Shown here: positions 1 to 12,603 of the stretch, in pieces | Layout of the letters: each line of letters begins with the position of its first letter | Position numbering within the stretch: position 1 is the stretch's first letter | Assembly (NCBI GenBank): GCA_002693605.1 | Contig: NZQO01000010.1 | Location: forward strand, 1 to 12,603 | Reading direction: 5' to 3' | Source of the DNA: Flavobacteriaceae bacterium | GTDB lineage: Bacteria; Bacteroidota; Bacteroidia; Flavobacteriales; Flavobacteriaceae | Length of the DNA: 12,603 bases | The notes under the pieces: model-generated | Told to the model about the DNA's origin: nothing | What the model saw: only the letters and a program-made list of their open reading frames with translations | Database searches by the model: none | Position numbers and translations under genes: made by a program

Positions 1-448
1 GGCGCTATACAGAAGTATTCGCCAGGAAGTCCCAACCGATTATTTTACCCTACCGTTAGGAAAGGCAGCCCTCTTAAAGGAAGGAAGCCAGGTTACGATC
101 GTTACATACGGTGCCGGGGTACATTGGGCCTTGGAAACACTTTCTGAACTGGAAATCTCGGCAGATCTGTTAGACCTTCGTACGCTGGCGCCATTGGATG
201 TTGAGGCGATATATAAATCGGTACGGAAAACCGGCAAGCTGATCATCCTTCAGGAGGACACTCTTTTCGGCGGAATAGGGGCCGATATCTCGGCACTCGT
301 TTCCGAAAACTGTTTCGAAAAACTAGATGCTCCCATCAAGCGTGTGGGCAGCTTGGAAACCCCCGTTCCGTTCGCGGCACAGCTTGAGCAACAGTACCTT
401 CCGAAGAACCGATTCAAGCAGGTTTTAGCCGATCTCGTTGCTTATTAA
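1..448 (+). CDS. 2-oxoacid dehydrogenase E1 component, beta-type C-terminal part (5'-truncated)
   Basis: The reading frame is open from base 2 to the TAA at 446-448 and gives the last 148 residues of a protein that begins upstream of the window. The sequence has the features of the transketolase C-terminal domain of thiamine-diphosphate E1 enzymes: a TIVTYGAGVHWALE segment near the start, then DLLDLRTLAPLD, LIILQEDTLFGGIGADI, and a terminal VPFAAQLEQQYLP. E1 decarboxylates a 2-oxoacid (branched-chain oxoacid or pyruvate) and transfers the acyl group to the lipoyl arm of E2 in the cytoplasm. In flavobacteria this domain is often the C-terminal half of a fused alpha/beta E1 of about 660-690 residues; whether it is fused here cannot be seen. 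Substrate cannot be fixed from this part. An internal ATG at 131 is not the true start, because domain homology continues upstream of it. Confidence 0.88.
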   Translation, partial: ALYRSIRQEVPTDYFTLPLGKAALLKEGSQVTIVTYGAGVHWALETLSELEISADLLDLRTLAPLDVEAIYKSVRKTGKLIILQEDTLFGGIGADISALVSENCFEKLDAPIKRVGSLETPVPFAAQLEQQYLPKNRFKQVLADLVAY

Positions 449-2023: not shown

Positions 2024-3148
2024 ATGCCGCAAAATAACAGGTACGACGTAATTATAGTGGGCGGAGGACTTGCCGGATTAACCTGTGCGTTGCATCTGTC
2101 TGCTCGTGGTAAACGAATCCTCCTTATTGAGAAAAACTCATATCCATCCCATAAGGTTTGTGGGGAATATATTTCCAACGAAGTGTTGCCGTACCTAGCG
2201 ACGTTGGGTATTGACCCATTTCAGCTAGGCGCCAAAAAAATTGATAGGTTCCAACTTAGCACCAAAAAGGGCAAATCATTAACAGTATCGTTACCCCTGG
2301 GCGGTTTTGGAATTAGCCGCTATGCGTTCGACAATTATCTTTATCAAAAAATAGTAGAAACAGACCGAGTGATCATCGATTCGGTGAGAGATATTCAATT
2401 CATAAACGACCAATTCAAGGTACGCACCCAAAAAGGTCACTGGGCATTAGCGCCCTATGTAGTAGGAGCTTTCGGAAAACGAGGCAATTTAGATCATTTC
2501 TTAGACCGACCATTTATTAAGCGGAAAACTCCGTGGTTGGCCATAAAGGCCCATTATAAGGGAAATCTTCCCGATAATTTGGTGGCGCTTCATATGTTTG
2601 ATGGTGGGTATTGCGGATTGTCGAAAGTGGAGATGGACAGTGTGAATGTCTGTTATATGGTTCAATCGGAAAAATTCAAGAAATTTAGGAATATCGATTC
2701 GTTCCAAAAGGAAATTCTATATCAAAACCCAAATTTAGATGAATTCTTCAGCACTGCTTCTATGATCTTTCAGGCACCCGTAGCAATTAGCCAGATTTCG
2801 TTTCAGCAAAAAAGTCAAGTTGAAAAGCATGTGTTTATGGTTGGCGATAGTGCCGGACTAATTCACCCACTTTGCGGTAACGGCATGGCGATGGCGATAC
2901 AGGCCGCCAAGATTTTTTCCGACTGTTATCTAACGGCCGAAAAAGAAAAATGGAGCAGAAACCAACTCGAAAAAACATATACTCATAGATGGAACGCGGC
3001 ATTTTCAAACCGCTTACGCATAGGCGCACTCGTTCAGCGGGTTTTTCTCAATAATACGGCCATGGATGTGTCAACCCGCATCCTGCAGACGGCACCTACG
3101 CTAGTGCCCAAGATAATATCCCGAACCCATGGAAAGGCTCTCGCGTAA
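2024..3148 (+). CDS. FAD-dependent oxidoreductase, geranylgeranyl reductase / hydroxylase superfamily
   Basis: 374 residues. The N terminus has the Rossmann dinucleotide motif VGGGLAG (12-18) with Glu36 ending the second strand, as expected for binding the ADP ribose of FAD. CGEY at 46-49 follows, and the second FAD motif GDSAGLIHPLCGNGM spans 274-288. This order is typical of the geranylgeranyl-reductase/FixC and aromatic hydroxylase superfamily. The C-terminal third (300-374) is helical and lacks a membrane anchor. As first gene of a cluster with a type III PKS and a methyltransferase, its likely job is tailoring: hydroxylating or oxidising the polyketide ring (for example resorcinol to quinone), or reducing a double bond. 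The choice between oxidation and reduction cannot be made from sequence. Its TAA overlaps the next ATG by one base. Confidence 0.85.
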   Translation: MPQNNRYDVIIVGGGLAGLTCALHLSARGKRILLIEKNSYPSHKVCGEYISNEVLPYLATLGIDPFQLGAKKIDRFQLSTKKGKSLTVSLPLGGFGISRYAFDNYLYQKIVETDRVIIDSVRDIQFINDQFKVRTQKGHWALAPYVVGAFGKRGNLDHFLDRPFIKRKTPWLAIKAHYKGNLPDNLVALHMFDGGYCGLSKVEMDSVNVCYMVQSEKFKKFRNIDSFQKEILYQNPNLDEFFSTASMIFQAPVAISQISFQQKSQVEKHVFMVGDSAGLIHPLCGNGMAMAIQAAKIFSDCYLTAEKEKWSRNQLEKTYTHRWNAAFSNRLRIGALVQRVFLNNTAMDVSTRILQTAPTLVPKIISRTHGKALA

Positions 3149-3888
3149 TGGTACAATTTGCCTCTAAATATAGGTCTTCGGAAGTTGAGATAATGGATAG
3201 CTTTGACCTTCAAGGTGCCGAAATGTCGGAACTCCTAAATGATCTTAAAACGGTTAACCGTTATCTAGGCGGCACCCGAATTACGCTTGAAGGAATAAAA
3301 AAACTGTTGACCAACAGGCCTAGGGATAGGCCCGTTACGATTGTCGATTTTGGGTGTGGAGATGGAGAAATGCTTCGGAAATGTGCCATTTATGGTGAAA
3401 ATGTGGGGTGCAAATTCAAATTGATAGGTGTCGATGCAAATGGCCATATCCTTGAGGACGCCCGAATAAAATCAGCCAATTACAAAAATATTAGCTTTCA
3501 GAAAATAGATGTATTTTCAACCGAGCAAAGTTTACCCGAATGCGATATTGCATTGTGCACCTTATTTTTACACCATTTTCGCGATAGCGAAATTGCAGCA
3601 CTTCTGCAAAGAATCCATATCAGGTCCAACGTGGGTATCGTAGTGAACGACCTACAACGCAGCTGGCTAGCCTTTCGGCTTTTCAAGGTATTCGGTCGCG
3701 TGTTTCTGAAATCAAAAACCGCGCGCCATGACGGTTTGGTTTCGGTTGCCAGGGGTTTTAGAAAAAAAGAATTGATGCAGATAAGCAAAGAGATTGGGGC
3801 CGGCCATAACTCGGTGCAGTGGTGCTGGGCCTTCCGCTACCAATGGGTGCTATTCAAGAACTCCAAAGAAAATCTAAAAAATAGTTAA
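3148..3888 (+). CDS. Class I SAM-dependent methyltransferase
   Basis: 246 residues. Motif I is IVDFGCGDGE (65-74); an acidic residue after strand 2, Asp96 in GVDANG, would bind the SAM ribose; ID at 120-121 and ALCTLFLHHF (135-144) fit motifs II-IV. A conserved-looking NDLQRS (167-172) ends strand 5. The N-terminal RSSEVEIMDSFDLQG with NRYLGG is a helical lid often found in small-molecule methyltransferases beside type III PKS genes. The start at 3148 overlaps the previous stop (TAATG). A second ATG at 3193 (residue 16) is possible, but the upstream part appears to belong to the fold. The probable role is O- or C-methylation of the polyketide ring or its acidic intermediate in the cytoplasm; the acceptor atom is unknown. 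Confidence 0.87.
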   Translation: MVQFASKYRSSEVEIMDSFDLQGAEMSELLNDLKTVNRYLGGTRITLEGIKKLLTNRPRDRPVTIVDFGCGDGEMLRKCAIYGENVGCKFKLIGVDANGHILEDARIKSANYKNISFQKIDVFSTEQSLPECDIALCTLFLHHFRDSEIAALLQRIHIRSNVGIVVNDLQRSWLAFRLFKVFGRVFLKSKTARHDGLVSVARGFRKKELMQISKEIGAGHNSVQWCWAFRYQWVLFKNSKENLKNS

Positions 3889-3896
3889 TCAGAAAT

Positions 3897-4949
3897 ATGC
3901 CCGTATCTATTGTAACCGTAGCCAAGCAGCTTCCGCCATTCAGCAGAAAAACAGAAGAAATCCTGCCTTTTGTGGAAAGTTGGATACACGGTCAAGAAAA
4001 ACGCTTTCAACGGAAAGTGATAAAACTGTTTGAAAATGCGGGTGTAGACAGGCGCTATTCCATAATGGAGCCGGCCGAAGTGTTTTTAAATACTTCTTTT
4101 GAAGAGCGCAATAACATTTATATCAGAGCGGTAAAATCGCTAGGAAAAAAGGTGCTGGAGAAAGCACTGTTTCAAGCAAATTGGGCCCCTACAGAAGTAG
4201 ATTTTATCATTACGGTTAGCTGTACCGGTATTATGATTCCTTCGGTCGATGCCTATCTTATTAATGAACTTAAGCTGAAACAGGATATCGTGAGACTTCC
4301 CGTAACCGAGATGGGCTGTGCCGCAGGAATATCGGGAATGATTTACGCCAAGAATTTCCTGAAGGCCAACCCGGGGAAAAAAGCGGCGGTAGTTGCCCTC
4401 GAATCCCCTACGGCGACCTTTCAATTGGATGATTATTCTATGACCAACATAGTGAGTGCGGCGATCTTCGGTGATGGTGCGGCTTGTGTTTTACTGTCTT
4501 CTGAAGAAAATGGCACAGGGCCCCAGTTAATCGATGAGGCGATGTATCATTTTTACGACGCCACCCAAATGATGGGCTTTGAGGTGGTTAATTCCGGCTT
4601 GCAGATGGTATTGGACAAAGACGTGCCACAGAAAATTGCAGATCATTTTCCTCAAATTATTGAACCTTTTCTCCAGCGGAACGGCTACGAAATAGATCAG
4701 GTTAGCCATCTAATTTTCCATCCGGGCGGAAAAAAAATAGTCGCCACGGTCGAAGAACTTTTCCGTGGGATGGGAAAAAACATAGACGATACAAAAGAAG
4801 TCTTGCGCCGTTACGGAAACATGAGCAGCGTAACGGTACTGTATGTCTTGGAACGGTTTCTCAATAAGGAAACCGAAAGAGGAGACCTCGGATTGATGCT
4901 AAGCTTCGGGCCAGGGTTTTCTGCACAGCGCATCTTGCTCAAATTTTAA
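3897..4949 (+). CDS. Type III polyketide synthase (chalcone/stilbene synthase superfamily)
   Basis: 350 residues, the usual length for bacterial type III PKSs. The thiolase-fold catalytic triad is visible: Cys141 in TEMGCAAGISGM, His275 in IFHPGGKKI, and Asn308 in RYGNMSS. The family signature near the C terminus is SFGPGFSA (336-343). RRYSIMEP at 52-59 and VSCTGIMIPSVDAYL at 107-121 also match the family. The enzyme would load an acyl starter on Cys141, extend it with malonyl units and cyclise the chain to a resorcinol, phloroglucinol or pyrone. A dedicated ketosynthase, dehydratase, SDR and ACP directly downstream suggest a fatty acyl starter delivered from ACP rather than from CoA; this is inference, by analogy with the Azotobacter Ars system, where a FAS feeds a type III PKS. 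Product and number of extensions are unknown. Confidence 0.95.
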   Translation: MPVSIVTVAKQLPPFSRKTEEILPFVESWIHGQEKRFQRKVIKLFENAGVDRRYSIMEPAEVFLNTSFEERNNIYIRAVKSLGKKVLEKALFQANWAPTEVDFIITVSCTGIMIPSVDAYLINELKLKQDIVRLPVTEMGCAAGISGMIYAKNFLKANPGKKAAVVALESPTATFQLDDYSMTNIVSAAIFGDGAACVLLSSEENGTGPQLIDEAMYHFYDATQMMGFEVVNSGLQMVLDKDVPQKIADHFPQIIEPFLQRNGYEIDQVSHLIFHPGGKKIVATVEELFRGMGKNIDDTKEVLRRYGNMSSVTVLYVLERFLNKETERGDLGLMLSFGPGFSAQRILLKF

Positions 4950-4959
4950 AAAAACGAAT

Positions 4960-5727
4960 ATGGAACGTGGAAAATGGGCAGTAATAATTGGTGGCAGCAG
5001 TGGCCTGGGCCTGGCATCGGCCAAGCAACTGGCGTCAATCGGTTATAATATCTGCATTTTGCACAGAGATCGAAAAAGCCATATGTCATCATTTCAAAAT
5101 GAACTGGAATTAATAAAATCGACTAAAACTGAAGTAATTACCTTTAACAAAGATGCTTTAAAGAAAGAAACCATAGAAATTGTACTCAGTAAGTTACCCC
5201 GCAACCACGTTGGTGTCTTGATTCACAGTATCGCAAAGGGAAGTCTAAAACCTATGCAGGCCGATAACGGAATTACCTTGACCGACGAGGATTTGCACAT
5301 TACGCTTAATGCGATGGCAATCAATTGGTACACGTGGAGCAAGGCACTGAAAGAAGGGGGCTACTTTTCCGATAATTCACGAAATATATCCTTTACAAGC
5401 GAAGGTAGTTATCGGGTTTGGCCCAATTACGCAGCGGTATCTGCCGCAAAGGCAACCCTGGAGGCGCTCATGCGTCAAATGGCCGTGAGTTGGGCTCCAG
5501 CTGGAATTACCACAAACTGCATCCAAGCCGGGACCACACATACTCCTTCGCTTGAGGCTATTCCCGATAGCGATAGGCTGATTGAGTTGGCGTCATCACG
5601 AAACCCCATGGGTCGCCTCACCGAACCGGAGGATGTAGCCAATGCAGTAGCCTTACTTTGCTCAAAAGATGCTAGTTGGATTAACGGTACAATATTAAAA
5701 GTGGACGGGGGCGAAAGTCTTCGTTAA
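4960..5727 (+). CDS. SDR-family reductase, probable enoyl-ACP reductase (FabL/FabI-like)
   Basis: 255 residues with a Rossmann start GGSSGLG (11-17) and a basic pair around His35-Arg36 that favours NADPH. The classical SDR Y-x3-K is absent: the usual tyrosine position is Val160, while Tyr157 and Lys164 form Y-x6-K (NYAAVSAAK), the spacing used by enoyl-ACP reductases FabI and FabL. HSIAKG (89-94) replaces the usual NAG motif and also fits that group. The tail, PMGRLTEPEDVANAV then INGTILKVDGG, is the common SDR C-terminal pattern. It probably reduces trans-2-enoyl-ACP made by the neighbouring ketosynthase and dehydratase, giving a saturated chain. A ketoreductase role is less likely because of the Y-x6-K, but is not excluded. 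The gene starts 10 bp after the PKS stop. Confidence 0.82.
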   Translation: MERGKWAVIIGGSSGLGLASAKQLASIGYNICILHRDRKSHMSSFQNELELIKSTKTEVITFNKDALKKETIEIVLSKLPRNHVGVLIHSIAKGSLKPMQADNGITLTDEDLHITLNAMAINWYTWSKALKEGGYFSDNSRNISFTSEGSYRVWPNYAAVSAAKATLEALMRQMAVSWAPAGITTNCIQAGTTHTPSLEAIPDSDRLIELASSRNPMGRLTEPEDVANAVALLCSKDASWINGTILKVDGGESLR

Positions 5728-5730
5728 GCT

Positions 5731-6195
5731 ATGGACTCTAAAAACAACTTAATCGATTTGCTACCTTACGGACCTGAGTTTCGGTTTGTAGATTTGATCC
5801 ATTCCGTTTCAGAAAGTGAAATCGTGGGTGAATTTACGTTTCGAAAGTCGTTATCATTTTATCAGCATCATTTTCTCCAAAACCCCGTTACACCAGGGGT
5901 TATCTTGGTAGAATGTATGGCGCAAATAGGGTTGGTGTGCTTGGGTATTTACCTAACGCAACAAAATACAGAAACACGCGGAAATATTGCCTTGAGTAAT
6001 GCGAACATCGATTTTCTACATCCCGTATTACTCGGAGAAAAGGTAACCGTACGGGCAGCAAAGGTATATTTCCGCTTTGGGAAATTGAAATGCAACGTCT
6101 CTATGGAAAACGAAACTGGCCTTCGGGTTTGCGCCGGTACGCTCGAAGGAGTGGCAATTCCGAATAAGACGAAAATACATACCTCGAAAATATGA
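5731..6195 (+). CDS. 3-hydroxyacyl-ACP dehydratase, FabZ/FabA-like hotdog fold
   Basis: 154 residues, single hotdog domain. The catalytic pair is recognisable: His47 in YQHHFLQNPVTPGV, matching the family's GHFPxxPxxPGV, and Glu61 in ILVECMAQIG, matching EAMAQ. LLPYGPEFRFVDLI at the N terminus matches the family's LPHRxPFLxVD opening. ANIDFLHPVLLGEKV fits the later strand and loop. The Gly before His47 and the Pro after Phe48 of canonical FabZ are changed (HHFLQ for GHFPG), which suggests a divergent, pathway-specific enzyme. It would remove water from a 3-hydroxyacyl-ACP so that the adjacent SDR can reduce the product. It begins 3 bp after the SDR stop, and its own stop overlaps the ketosynthase start by four bases (ATGA). 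Confidence 0.88.
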   Translation: MDSKNNLIDLLPYGPEFRFVDLIHSVSESEIVGEFTFRKSLSFYQHHFLQNPVTPGVILVECMAQIGLVCLGIYLTQQNTETRGNIALSNANIDFLHPVLLGEKVTVRAAKVYFRFGKLKCNVSMENETGLRVCAGTLEGVAIPNKTKIHTSKI

Positions 6196-7463
6196 AACAT
6201 AGAGTGGTCGTCACCGGTTTGGGCATAGTAGCCCCCAATGGAACTACCGTTGCTTCTTTTAAGAAGTCATTGGAAGAGGGCATCTCTGGAATTCGCTTTT
6301 TTCCAGAGCTGGCGAAATTGAATTTTTCATGCCAAATAGGGGGGATGCCGGCTATTTCCAACGAGCGAAAGCACGATTATTTTACCCCATTACAACTACG
6401 GCAGTTTAACAGCAACGGGATTATGTACGGTGTTATAGCCGGTATGGACGCCCTGCGAGATGCGGGGATTTCGCCTGTAGTTAAAGAAGATCCCCCTCTT
6501 TGGGACCTTGGTGTTATCTTTGGTGCGGGCACGAGTGGGGTCGAAAAATTCCGTGAGGCAATTTATAAAATTGACAAAAAAGAAGTCCGCAAATTGGGCA
6601 GTACCAGTGTTGTACAAACCATGTGCAGTGGCGTAAGTGCCTATTTGGGCGGTATGATTGGTGCCGGCAATACTGTAACGAGTAATTCTTCTGCCTGTGC
6701 AACCGGAACCGAGGCGGTCATAATGGGGTTTAACCGCATTGCGAACGGTTTGGCCACCCAAATGGTGTGTGGAAGCTGTAGTGACGACGGTCCCTACATT
6801 TGGGGCGGATTTGATGCTATGAAGGTTACGACGTATAAACATAATGAATATCCTACGGCAGGTTCGCGACCTCTTAGCGAAACCGCCAGTGGGTTTGTTC
6901 CCTCCGCAGGAGCCGGGGCGTTGGTACTCGAATCGTTGGAGAGCGCGGTAAGACGTAATGCCACTATTTACGCAGAAGTGCTAGGAGGAGCAGTGAACAA
7001 TGGGGGCCAACGATTGGACGGGAGCATGACCGCCCCCAATAGTACGGCAGTACAACGGTGCATAACCTCGGCTGTGAAACTTGCAGATATCAGCGCTAAC
7101 GAAATAGACTATATTAACGGCCATCTCACGGCAACCACAAAAGATTCACTAGAAATTGAAAACTGGTGCGAAGCCTTGGAAAGATCGGGTAGCGATTTTC
7201 CGTATATCAACACGCTAAAAAGTCTGGTGGGGCATGGCCTTGCAGCTAGCGGAAGCATGGAGTGCGTCGCAACCATTTTGCAACTATATCATAATTTTAT
7301 TGCGCCCAATATAAACTGTGAAGATCTGCACCCTGATATTTCAGAAAGCGTCGCGGTTGAAAGGATTCCGAGGGAAAAGATCAGCACGCCGCTAAAGACC
7401 GCCATAAAAGCTAGTTTTGGCTTTGGCGATGTGAACGCGTGTGTTATCTTTAGGAAAAATTAA
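6192..7463 (+). CDS. Beta-ketoacyl-ACP synthase, FabF-like (KAS I/II family)
   Basis: 423 residues, near the normal length for KAS I/II. The active-site nucleophile is Cys169 in NSSACATGTEA; the two catalytic histidines are His311 in INGHLTATT and His348 in LKSLVGHG, and the structural lysine is Lys343. The C-terminal SFGFGDVNACVIF matches the family's closing motif with Asp in place of the second Gly. The usual HGT around the first histidine reads HLT (Gly312 position is Leu) and the following loop is one residue shorter. The full triad argues for a working condensing enzyme, not a chain-length factor. It would elongate an ACP-bound chain with malonyl-ACP for the cluster's lipid starter. Its start overlaps the dehydratase stop, and the ACP follows after 6 bp, as in many FAS operons. 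Confidence 0.92.
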   Translation: MKHRVVVTGLGIVAPNGTTVASFKKSLEEGISGIRFFPELAKLNFSCQIGGMPAISNERKHDYFTPLQLRQFNSNGIMYGVIAGMDALRDAGISPVVKEDPPLWDLGVIFGAGTSGVEKFREAIYKIDKKEVRKLGSTSVVQTMCSGVSAYLGGMIGAGNTVTSNSSACATGTEAVIMGFNRIANGLATQMVCGSCSDDGPYIWGGFDAMKVTTYKHNEYPTAGSRPLSETASGFVPSAGAGALVLESLESAVRRNATIYAEVLGGAVNNGGQRLDGSMTAPNSTAVQRCITSAVKLADISANEIDYINGHLTATTKDSLEIENWCEALERSGSDFPYINTLKSLVGHGLAASGSMECVATILQLYHNFIAPNINCEDLHPDISESVAVERIPREKISTPLKTAIKASFGFGDVNACVIFRKN

Positions 7464-7469
7464 ACCGCT

Positions 7470-7721
7470 ATGACCACAGAGCAAATCTACGCAAAGTTGC
7501 TACCCATTATACAAGCATATCTTCCCACAGACGTAGATCCCGACTCGGTAAATCCCGATAAGGATTTGACCAATGAGCTCAATATCAATTCGGCCCATCT
7601 GGTAGATGTTGTGCTGGACGTGGAAGACCAGTTCGACATTGAGTTTGCGAATGAGGATATGGAAAATCTTCGTACCGTAAATGATGCAATAGAAATCATT
7701 CGGAAAAAAACAACATCATAA
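7470..7721 (+). CDS. Acyl carrier protein (pathway-specific)
   Basis: 83 residues, acidic, with the four-helix ACP pattern. The phosphopantetheine attachment serine is Ser41 in LNINSAHLVDVVLDVEDQF (37-55). The canonical DSL is NSA here: Asp replaced by Asn and Leu by Ala, with the helix continuing HLVDVV. Helix III/IV are NEDMENLRTVNDAIEIIRK. Attachment by a host phosphopantetheinyl transferase seems likely, since none is encoded in the window. The protein is expected to carry the growing chain between the ketosynthase, dehydratase and SDR, and probably to hand it to the type III PKS (inference). It differs enough at the serine motif from a housekeeping AcpP to be a dedicated carrier. It is the last gene of the biosynthetic set. 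Confidence 0.92.
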   Translation: MTTEQIYAKLLPIIQAYLPTDVDPDSVNPDKDLTNELNINSAHLVDVVLDVEDQFDIEFANEDMENLRTVNDAIEIIRKKTTS

Positions 7722-11337: not shown

Positions 11338-11368
11338 TAAAATTACCGGGCGAACTTTCGCGGCTCAA
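11338..11368 (-). promoter_or_regulatory. Putative promoter for the TerC-family gene
   Basis: On the minus strand, TTG (complement of 11366-11368), a 20-bp spacer and TAATTTTA (complement of 11338-11345) match the Bacteroidota promoter with one mismatch. The leader to the ATG at 11308 would be about 22-25 bases. The site is in the 191-bp divergent region shared with the hydratase gene. Confidence 0.42.
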
Positions 11369-11464
11369 ATATCGGTACAATCTATCACAAACCGACTTAA
11401 AGATATCTGAATTGTATTCCAAAACATCTAATTTATTGTTAAAGCGAATTCAGAACACAGGATT

Positions 11465-11494
11465 TTGAATACCTTACTTTAAACTATACTTTTT
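11465..11494 (+). promoter_or_regulatory. Possible promoter for the hydratase gene (near-leaderless)
   Basis: TTG at 11465-11467, a 19-bp spacer and TACTTTTT at 11487-11494 fit the pattern with one mismatch. The transcript would begin at about 11499-11502, on or next to the annotated ATG at 11500. So either the mRNA is leaderless, or translation starts at the second ATG (11506), or this match is by chance. Confidence 0.25.
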
Positions 11495-11499
11495 GAACC

Positions 11500-12603
11500 A
11501 TGGGAATGAACGTAACGCAAAAATTAATTAAGGAGCATTTAGTCAAGGGAAAAATGGTGCCGGGAGAAGAAATAGGCCTGAAAATTGACCAGGCATTGCT
11601 TCAGGACGCCACTGGAACCTTGGTTCAACTAGAGCTGGAGGCTATGAAACTGGATCGTGCCAAAACCGAGGTGGCGGTACAGTATGTAGACCATAACCTG
11701 TTGCAAACAGATTACAAAAATGCAGACGACCACGTATTTCTTCACAGTGCCGCACAAAAATTTGGCCTGTGGTTTAGTAGGCCAGGCAACGGTGTTAGCC
11801 ACCCCGTTCATATGGAGCGCTTTGGAAAGCCGGGCAAGACCTTGGTGGGTAGTGACAGCCATTCTTGTGCGGCTGGGTCCTTGGGAATGTTGGCCATAGG
11901 CACTGGAGGCCTCGACGTTGCAGCGGCTATTGCCGGACAACCCTATTTTGTGAAAATGCCTCAGGTAATGGGGGTAAAGTTAACGGGTACCCTTCCCAAA
12001 TGGGTTAGTGCCAAAGACGTAATTCTTGAAATGCTGCGTCGGCACGATGTCAAGGGCGGTGTGGGTAAGATAATTGAATATTACGGGGAAGGATTAAAGC
12101 AATTAAGCGCTATGGACCGGCACGTTATTGCAAATATGGGTGCAGAACTGGGTGCAACCACAACGGTATTTCCAAGCGACGAGGAAACCAAGCGATTTTT
12201 GAAGAGTCAGGGTAGGGAAGAGGACTGGCATGAACTTGTGGCAGATGCAGAAAGTACGTACGATCTCTACGAGGAAATTGTACTGGACGATCTCGTTCCA
12301 TTAATCGCCTTGCCAACAAGTCCGGGAAACGTGGTACCAGTGAGGGAAGTTGCCGGCAGAGAAATTAGCCAGGCAGTATTGGGGTCATCCGCAAACCCAG
12401 GACTTCGTGATTTCTGGATTGCGGGTGCAATTGTAGAGGGAAAATCCGTAAATCCTAATGTATCTTTTGATGTGAACCCCACGAGCAGGCAAATAATCCA
12501 AAATATGATAAGTACTAAAGCCTTCGCAAATCTTATTACCGCAGGCGCCCGCTTTCACCAAAGTGGTTGCATGGGATGTATCGGGATGGGGCAGGCGCCT
12601 GCA
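11500..12603 (+). CDS. Aconitase-superfamily hydratase (3'-truncated)
   Basis: The first 368 residues are in the window and the gene continues beyond it. It resembles the roughly 640-residue single-chain bacterial aconitate hydratases related to LeuC plus LeuD. Visible motifs are KIDQALLQDATGT (31-43), YVDHN (64-68), GLWFSRPGNGVSHPVHMERFGKPGKT (88-113), VGSDSHSCAAGSLGMLAIGTGGLD (116-139), MRRHDVKGGVGKIIEYYG-type region, and FPSDEETKRF. Cys357 and Cys360 in SGCMGCIGMGQAPA are two of the three [4Fe-4S] ligands of the family. The third, normally in GSCTN, is Ser297 (GSSANPGLRDF). From memory some related bacterial hydratases also read GSSANPG, so this may be a subfamily trait rather than a mutation. 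Likely citrate/isocitrate isomerisation or a related hydratase reaction; substrate is uncertain. ATG 11506 is an alternative start. Confidence 0.82.
   Translation, partial: MGMNVTQKLIKEHLVKGKMVPGEEIGLKIDQALLQDATGTLVQLELEAMKLDRAKTEVAVQYVDHNLLQTDYKNADDHVFLHSAAQKFGLWFSRPGNGVSHPVHMERFGKPGKTLVGSDSHSCAAGSLGMLAIGTGGLDVAAAIAGQPYFVKMPQVMGVKLTGTLPKWVSAKDVILEMLRRHDVKGGVGKIIEYYGEGLKQLSAMDRHVIANMGAELGATTTVFPSDEETKRFLKSQGREEDWHELVADAESTYDLYEEIVLDDLVPLIALPTSPGNVVPVREVAGREISQAVLGSSANPGLRDFWIAGAIVEGKSVNPNVSFDVNPTSRQIIQNMISTKAFANLITAGARFHQSGCMGCIGMGQAPA

Follow-up and report, generated by a model that had tools for sequence, protein, structure and literature searches.

The locus described here raises the question of what a type III polyketide synthase (PKS) makes, and from which starter, when its gene lies in one operon with parts of a dissociated fatty acid synthase (FAS). 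The operon was found in a 12,603-nucleotide stretch from a Flavobacteriaceae bacterium (assembly GCA_002693605.1, contig NZQO01000010.1), analysed at full length and called the window below; it makes up one entire contig of an assembly of 2.19 Mb in 161 contigs that is 68% complete. Seven open reading frames (ORFs), all on the forward strand between positions 2024 and 7721, follow one another at junctions that overlap by up to 4 bases or leave gaps of up to 10 (Table 1): a flavin adenine dinucleotide (FAD)-dependent oxidoreductase, an S-adenosylmethionine (SAM)-dependent methyltransferase (MT), the type III PKS, a short-chain dehydrogenase/reductase (SDR), a FabZ-like dehydratase, a FabF/FabB-like ketosynthase (KS), and an acyl carrier protein (ACP). 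The original prediction had described a tight operon of these genes; all seven ORFs are as it said, with their catalytic residues intact and a Pfam match backing the class of each product.

The operon is a real, conserved system, and it probably directs the synthesis of a lipid. On the operon's own ACP, its KS and FabZ would build or extend an acyl chain, the cell supplying FabG as ketoreductase and a malonyl transacylase; enoyl reduction would fall to the FabL-like SDR where present and otherwise to the cell's own enzyme. The type III PKS would then take the acyl chain off the ACP, add malonyl units and cyclise the product to an alkylresorcinol. Methylation and hydroxylation of its ring by the MT and the FAD enzyme would lead to a methylated hydroxy-alkylresorcinol or a benzoquinone lipid, with a possible membrane or redox role.

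Table 1. Genes of the operon in the window, and loci of a second type III PKS cluster of the phylum.
Feature	Position	Strand	Evidence
FAD-dependent oxidoreductase	2024..3148	+	flavin monooxygenase/halogenase-like fold; FAD-binding match in Pfam
SAM methyltransferase, PRK06202/UbiG-like	3148..3888	+	Pfam Methyltransf_25; NCBIfam PRK06202 119.8 bits (cut-off 243)
Type III PKS	3897..4949	+	Pfam Chal_sti_synt N and C; C141/H275/N308; F228 and M237 at cyclisation/gatekeeper positions
SDR, FabL-type enoyl-ACP reductase (putative)	4960..5727	+	Y157-x6-K164; best PDB match 3oic; optional in relatives
FabZ-like 3-hydroxyacyl-ACP dehydratase	5731..6195	+	Pfam FabA-like; FabZ structures; H47, E61
FabF/FabB-like ketosynthase	6192..7463	+	Pfam ketoacyl-synt N and C; KAS I/II structures; C169, H311, K343, H348
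Acyl carrier protein	7470..7721	+	Pfam PP-binding; INSA serine motif, S41
UbiA prenyltransferase-type III PKS-MT-FAD oxidoreductase clusters	L180:7273-11201; L179, L194-L198, L200-L204, L208		

Conservation among named relatives

A scan of named genomes gave at least 580 loci, of which the best 80 were analysed (loci bear L numbers below); this sample leans to close relatives. It includes Aequorivita, Ulvibacter, Altibacter, Gelidibacter, Psychroserpens, Salinimicrobium, Flavobacterium, Polaribacter and Aquimarina, with single records labelled Brumimicrobium, Siphonobacter and Saprospiraceae. The PKS, a member of the chalcone synthase family, keeps its catalytic triad in 80 of 80 named relatives, and FabZ its H47/E61 pair likewise in 80 of 80. 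C169 of the KS is found in 78 of 78, and H311, K343 and H348 in 77 of 78 (one gap each); N40-S41 of the ACP is found in 76 of 76, and Y157 and K164 of the SDR (Y-x6-K) in 52 of 52 relatives in which an SDR was found.

With a requirement of at least 2.5 kb of sequence upstream of the PKS and 5 kb downstream, 10 of the 80 loci were dropped for short flanks, and the FAD enzyme, MT, PKS, FabZ, KS and ACP were present in 70 of the remaining 70. Similar gene sets, which the original prediction had thought possible in other flavobacteria, exist in many of them. The SDR was found in only 45 of these loci. The gene neighbourhoods of these named loci keep six genes together and make the SDR optional; a fixed set of seven fails in 25 of 70 loci. 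Among 59 further genomes picked as relatives, a close PKS was found in 12, all of the same family, and each of these 12 has the seven genes in a single order (with inserted genes in three).

A phosphopantetheinyl transferase (PPTase) gene, called as a match of at least 25 bits up to 9 kb away on the same strand, lies just downstream in 43 of the 70 loci, directly after the ACP in most and separated from it by one gene in L060 and L067. A quick PKS tree (79 rows, with 27 of 76 inner branches open) requires two changes for the presence of the PPTase and seven for that of the SDR, of which at least four are forced by starred branches.

Co-inheritance of the PKS and the FAS-type genes

Two samples of 395 evenly drawn genomes, one from the phylum and one from the class, were compared; they share genomes and are not independent. 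In the phylum sample, PKSs of the window's clade were found in 33 genomes (at least 626 bits, the next-best PKS scoring 248), 30 of them from the window's family, of which at least 11 other genomes have no such PKS. The cluster KS (at least 698 bits) is present in 33 of these 33 genomes, on the same contig and strand, 447 to 1529 bases downstream. In the class sample the clade PKS was found in 26 genomes (down to 466.9 bits) and the KS in 26 of 26. Twelve further clade loci all possess the FAD enzyme, MT, PKS, FabZ, KS and ACP, with the SDR in eight; seven later ones all have the FAD enzyme, MT, PKS, SDR, FabZ and KS in order, the ACP being detected in four and undetected in L220, L222 and L224. 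Where the phylum has type III PKSs from outside this clade, a match to the KS, FabZ or ACP was found in 0 of 35 loci (5-17 kb read each). A chance neighbourhood is ruled out by these counts, together with the 70 of 70 named loci.

Type III PKSs usually accept acyl-CoA, and the FAS genes might serve another lipid and merely share the operon with a PKS that draws acyl-CoA from the general pool. Such an arrangement would fit the occurrence of the KS without the clade PKS in 10 sampled genomes (five of the phylum sample and six of the class sample, one shared), but it is quite unlikely: the clade PKS is never without the KS in either sample, and the loci of other type III PKSs lack it. All five KS-only genomes of the phylum sample hold a more distant type III PKS elsewhere.

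The FAS-type cassette away from this PKS

Eleven cassette loci without the clade PKS (L215-L219 and L227-L232) have an ACP near the KS in all 11, FabZ in nine, the PPTase in eight and the SDR in six; as to the FabZ gaps, L230 starts at the KS and L232 is a 5.4-kb contig. The SDR-FabZ-KS-ACP-PPTase set of L215 and L216 adjoins, in divergent orientation, DarB and DarH dialkylresorcinol genes, which score 635 and 615 bits (DarB, cut-off 550) and 454 and 443 bits (DarH, cut-off 300) against NCBIfam. The neighbours in L217-L219 are a GNAT-like gene and a glycosyltransferase-2 gene, joined in L218 by a gene resembling BioF/serine palmitoyltransferase. Because the (SDR)-FabZ-KS-ACP set is found with such different partners, it is best explained as an acyl-ACP supplier, and it behaves as a portable cassette. 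The earlier suggestion that a dissociated FAS beside the PKS supplies its starter is thereby strengthened, the set being both co-inherited with the PKS and found with other acyl-using partners.

The usual serine motif of ACPs is DSL. In the majority of cassettes, whether the PKS is present or not (the window, L215, L216, L218 and L227-L231), it is INSA, INST or INSM, and in L217 and L219 it is LDSF.

Identity of the SDR and the other FAS-type enzymes

The best match of each of the seven proteins in NCBIfam falls below the curated cut-off, narrowly for the ACP (56.7 versus 66 bits), so most of them represent distinct subfamilies. The KS scores 256.4 bits against fabF (cut-off 493.75), and the dehydratase 45 bits against FabZ (cut-off 113) with its catalytic His and Glu retained. 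The best PDB match of the SDR profile is B. subtilis FabL 3oic, at 140 bits versus 97 for the next structure; it is called FabL-like rather than filed as FabL because its NCBIfam FabL score of 147.7 bits is below the cut-off of 328. An ordinary ketoreductase is disfavoured by the Y-x6-K spacing and by the FabL-nearest profile.

The intermittent presence of the SDR could also mean that the starter which the cassette provides for a pigment-like lipid is unsaturated (enoyl or polyene), with the SDR as a late tailoring reductase rather than an enoyl-ACP reductase. The repeated changes of the SDR on the PKS tree, while the KS and FabZ stay, are in keeping with this, as is the lack of a close SDR elsewhere in six SDR-minus genomes (best 121 bits; four were read as SDR-minus and two taken so from a short PKS-KS gap). 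Against it, FabL is by far the closest match of the SDR, the SDR also accompanies six of the 11 cassettes without the PKS, and a housekeeping enoyl reductase could replace it; an unsaturated starter is very unlikely. Five SDR-minus loci with longer gaps between PKS and FabZ were examined for SDR remnants, and the ORFs read in these gaps resemble transposases or unrelated proteins. Similar transposase-like genes, of REP type, lie between PKS and FabZ at L021:7419-7979, L057:11114-11677 and L103:4250-4810, of which L057 and L103 are without the SDR.

Neighbouring genes were counted in 63 named loci, 17 of the 80 being dropped for short flanks. A fused branched-chain 2-oxoacid dehydrogenase E1-like gene is near the cluster in the window (131-448) and in 28 of the 63 loci, and FabH-AccB-AccC-like genes in eight of the 63. 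Both kinds of gene are linked to the priming of fatty acids; their proximity may reflect no more than synteny.

The PKS and its ring product

The solved structures closest to the PKS are PKS11 (two sequences) and 1u0m, then CylI. Among NCBIfam families, DpgA (3,5-dihydroxyphenylacetyl-CoA synthase) matches at 173.4 bits (cut-off 425), and DarB is not among the eight families matched by the window's PKS. Two residues that may bear on cyclisation, F228 and M237, are both present in 80 of 80 named relatives. The alignment sets CylI Asn opposite M237, which serves as a check on the mapping of that residue, and CylI Leu opposite F228. In HidC, an alkylresorcinol synthase whose predicted starter is acyl-ACP, the residue that corresponds to M237 is likewise Met (PMC8086630). 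Gly284 of ArsC lies nine residues before Met293; its partner in ArsB, Trp281, steers the reaction to resorcinol, and its replacement by Gly switched the product from resorcinol to pyrone (PMC6274091). F228, aromatic as Trp281 is, is the putative counterpart of that ArsB residue by its spacing of nine residues before M237. F228 and M237 may thus be said to lean toward a resorcinol product, though not to prove one.

The PKS might instead form alkylpyrones, decorated by the MT and the FAD enzyme, with the cassette still giving the acyl starter. In favour of pyrones, no solved structure is closer than that of the pyrone synthase-like PKS11, in which the residue opposite F228 is aromatic as well. 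Pyrones are nevertheless unlikely, given the HidC-like Met at 237, the dialkylresorcinol genes that adjoin a related cassette in two loci, and the C15/C17 alkylresorcinols made in a heterologous host by planctomycete type III PKSs, several of them from MT-oxidoreductase-PKS operons with MT and FAD neighbours (PMC10896814).

Tailoring enzymes and evidence against the proposed pathway

The FAD oxidoreductase is likely to act in ring oxidation. A flavin halogenase was rejected: the fold is shared, but the flavin-dependent halogenase motif WxWxI is present in 0 of 79 sequences.

Several findings weigh against alkylresorcinol-derived hydroxy or quinone lipids as products of the operon. The best structural matches of the FAD enzyme, halogenases and hydroxylases, score close together, and co-expression of a planctomycete MT and FAD enzyme led to just one methylation, probably at carbon, and to no oxidation (PMC10896814). 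F228 is a weak marker in both directions, its counterpart being Trp in the pyrone synthase-like PKS11 and Leu in CylI, a resorcinol synthase. The cassette is not self-sufficient, because none of the seven genes encodes a ketoreductase, a KAS III or a malonyl transacylase; the 25 loci noted above have no SDR, and no PPTase was found in the window's own, 68% complete, assembly. Finally, literature searches of partial coverage, with few subscription journals, turned up no paper on the gene arrangement and no product assigned to it, PMC12224551, PMC9323603 and PMC9606717 included, in line with the original prediction, which knew of none.

Neighbouring features of the window

A 23S rRNA methyltransferase-like gene begins 13 bases past the ACP gene and is not a constant neighbour in relatives. 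YceI-like secreted proteins are encoded near the cluster in 11 of the 63 loci (e.g. L021:11846-12376, L022:11857-12360 and L023:4029-4538), and an MMPL/HAE3 exporter in one of the 63 and also in L021 and L022. Rfam and tRNA scans of the window gave no matches, the last 1.2 kb (11350-12603) has no convincing ORF in the ORF list, and neither promoter-like sites (17 versus 23.8 expected) nor terminator-like sites (16 versus 14.5) gave a signal.

Other type III PKS clusters of the phylum

Type III PKS clusters of any kind make up 9-11% of the predicted biosynthetic clusters of Flavobacteriaceae (PMC10734526, PMC7440613), and those of Aquimarina were considered likely novel in a survey. In other families, 13 of the 35 loci outside the window's clade hold a UbiA prenyltransferase-type III PKS-MT-FAD oxidoreductase cluster (Table 1), and four have the FAD enzyme and MT without UbiA. 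A related FAD enzyme (44% for L180) and methyltransferase (38%) surround the PKS of this cluster, but the PKS of L180 is just 26% identical to that of the window, and UbiA stands in place of the FAS cassette. A limited literature search found no paper on the UbiA cluster; one on the Ubi-297 prenyltransferase concerns the ebo cluster instead (PMC9235831). An ORF of 163-183 amino acids follows the PKS in 10 of the 15 loci L162-L176 (e.g. L169:9038-9562). The three that were read resemble ICMT/BpsB-type membrane methyltransferases in their motif.

It is possible, though doubtful, that a lipoquinone head group of polyketide origin, the work of a type III PKS, MT and flavin hydroxylase, is common to Bacteroidota and carries interchangeable tails: acyl through a portable KS-FabZ-ACP cassette in flavobacteria and prenyl through UbiA in other families. 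The phylum is not known to use quinones other than menaquinone, and such a lipoquinone would be an additional electron carrier besides menaquinone or a membrane redox lipid. The operon suggests that common marine and freshwater bacteria may contain quinone lipids that have gone unrecognised, and it names a portable acyl-ACP supply module; one type III PKS clade that is not seen without its own dissociated FAS cassette makes the choice between acyl-ACP and acyl-CoA directly testable.

Comparison with known systems

The contrast drawn earlier with Azotobacter ArsA/ArsD, a type I multidomain FAS, and with the three-gene srs (Streptomyces griseus), pkq and hid clusters holds. The dialkylresorcinol/flexirubin clusters also yield resorcinol lipids of Bacteroidota, and a homologous cassette adjoins DarB/DarH in L215 and L216, but their ring is made by DarA/DarB and not by a type III PKS as proposed for the window. 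In the Azotobacter ars operon a dedicated FAS passes acyl groups from an ACP domain to the type III PKSs ArsB and ArsC, as modelled here (PMC6274091), whereas the window has discrete KS, FabZ, SDR and ACP genes, with tailoring genes, and no type I FAS. The cyl cluster (cylindrocyclophanes) has a free-standing ACP that feeds the resorcinol-forming type III PKS CylI through other synthases (PMC8086630), but the cluster uses type I PKSs, and CylI has Asn at 237 and Leu at 228.

As in hid, srs and pkq, the type III PKS of the window adjoins one MT gene and one FAD/oxidoreductase gene. The cyanobacterial hidABC cluster (hierridin) and the planctomycete operon share this content, and an acyl-ACP starter has been proposed for hidABC, as for the window; KS, FabZ and ACP are not part of either as described in the accessible text, and the gene order is MT-oxidoreductase-PKS (PMC8086630, PMC10896814). 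The srsABC cluster and the actinobacterial pkqABC cluster (polyketide quinones) likewise combine a type III PKS, an MT and a hydroxylase or oxidoreductase and yield alkyl benzoquinones, but they consist of three genes with no FAS cassette or ACP, and are likened to the window by gene content (PMC9927152). The PKS-MT-FAD part of the operon therefore resembles hidABC, srsABC and pkqABC, and its new element is the dissociated, portable FAS cassette that replaces a type I FAS or the general acyl pool.

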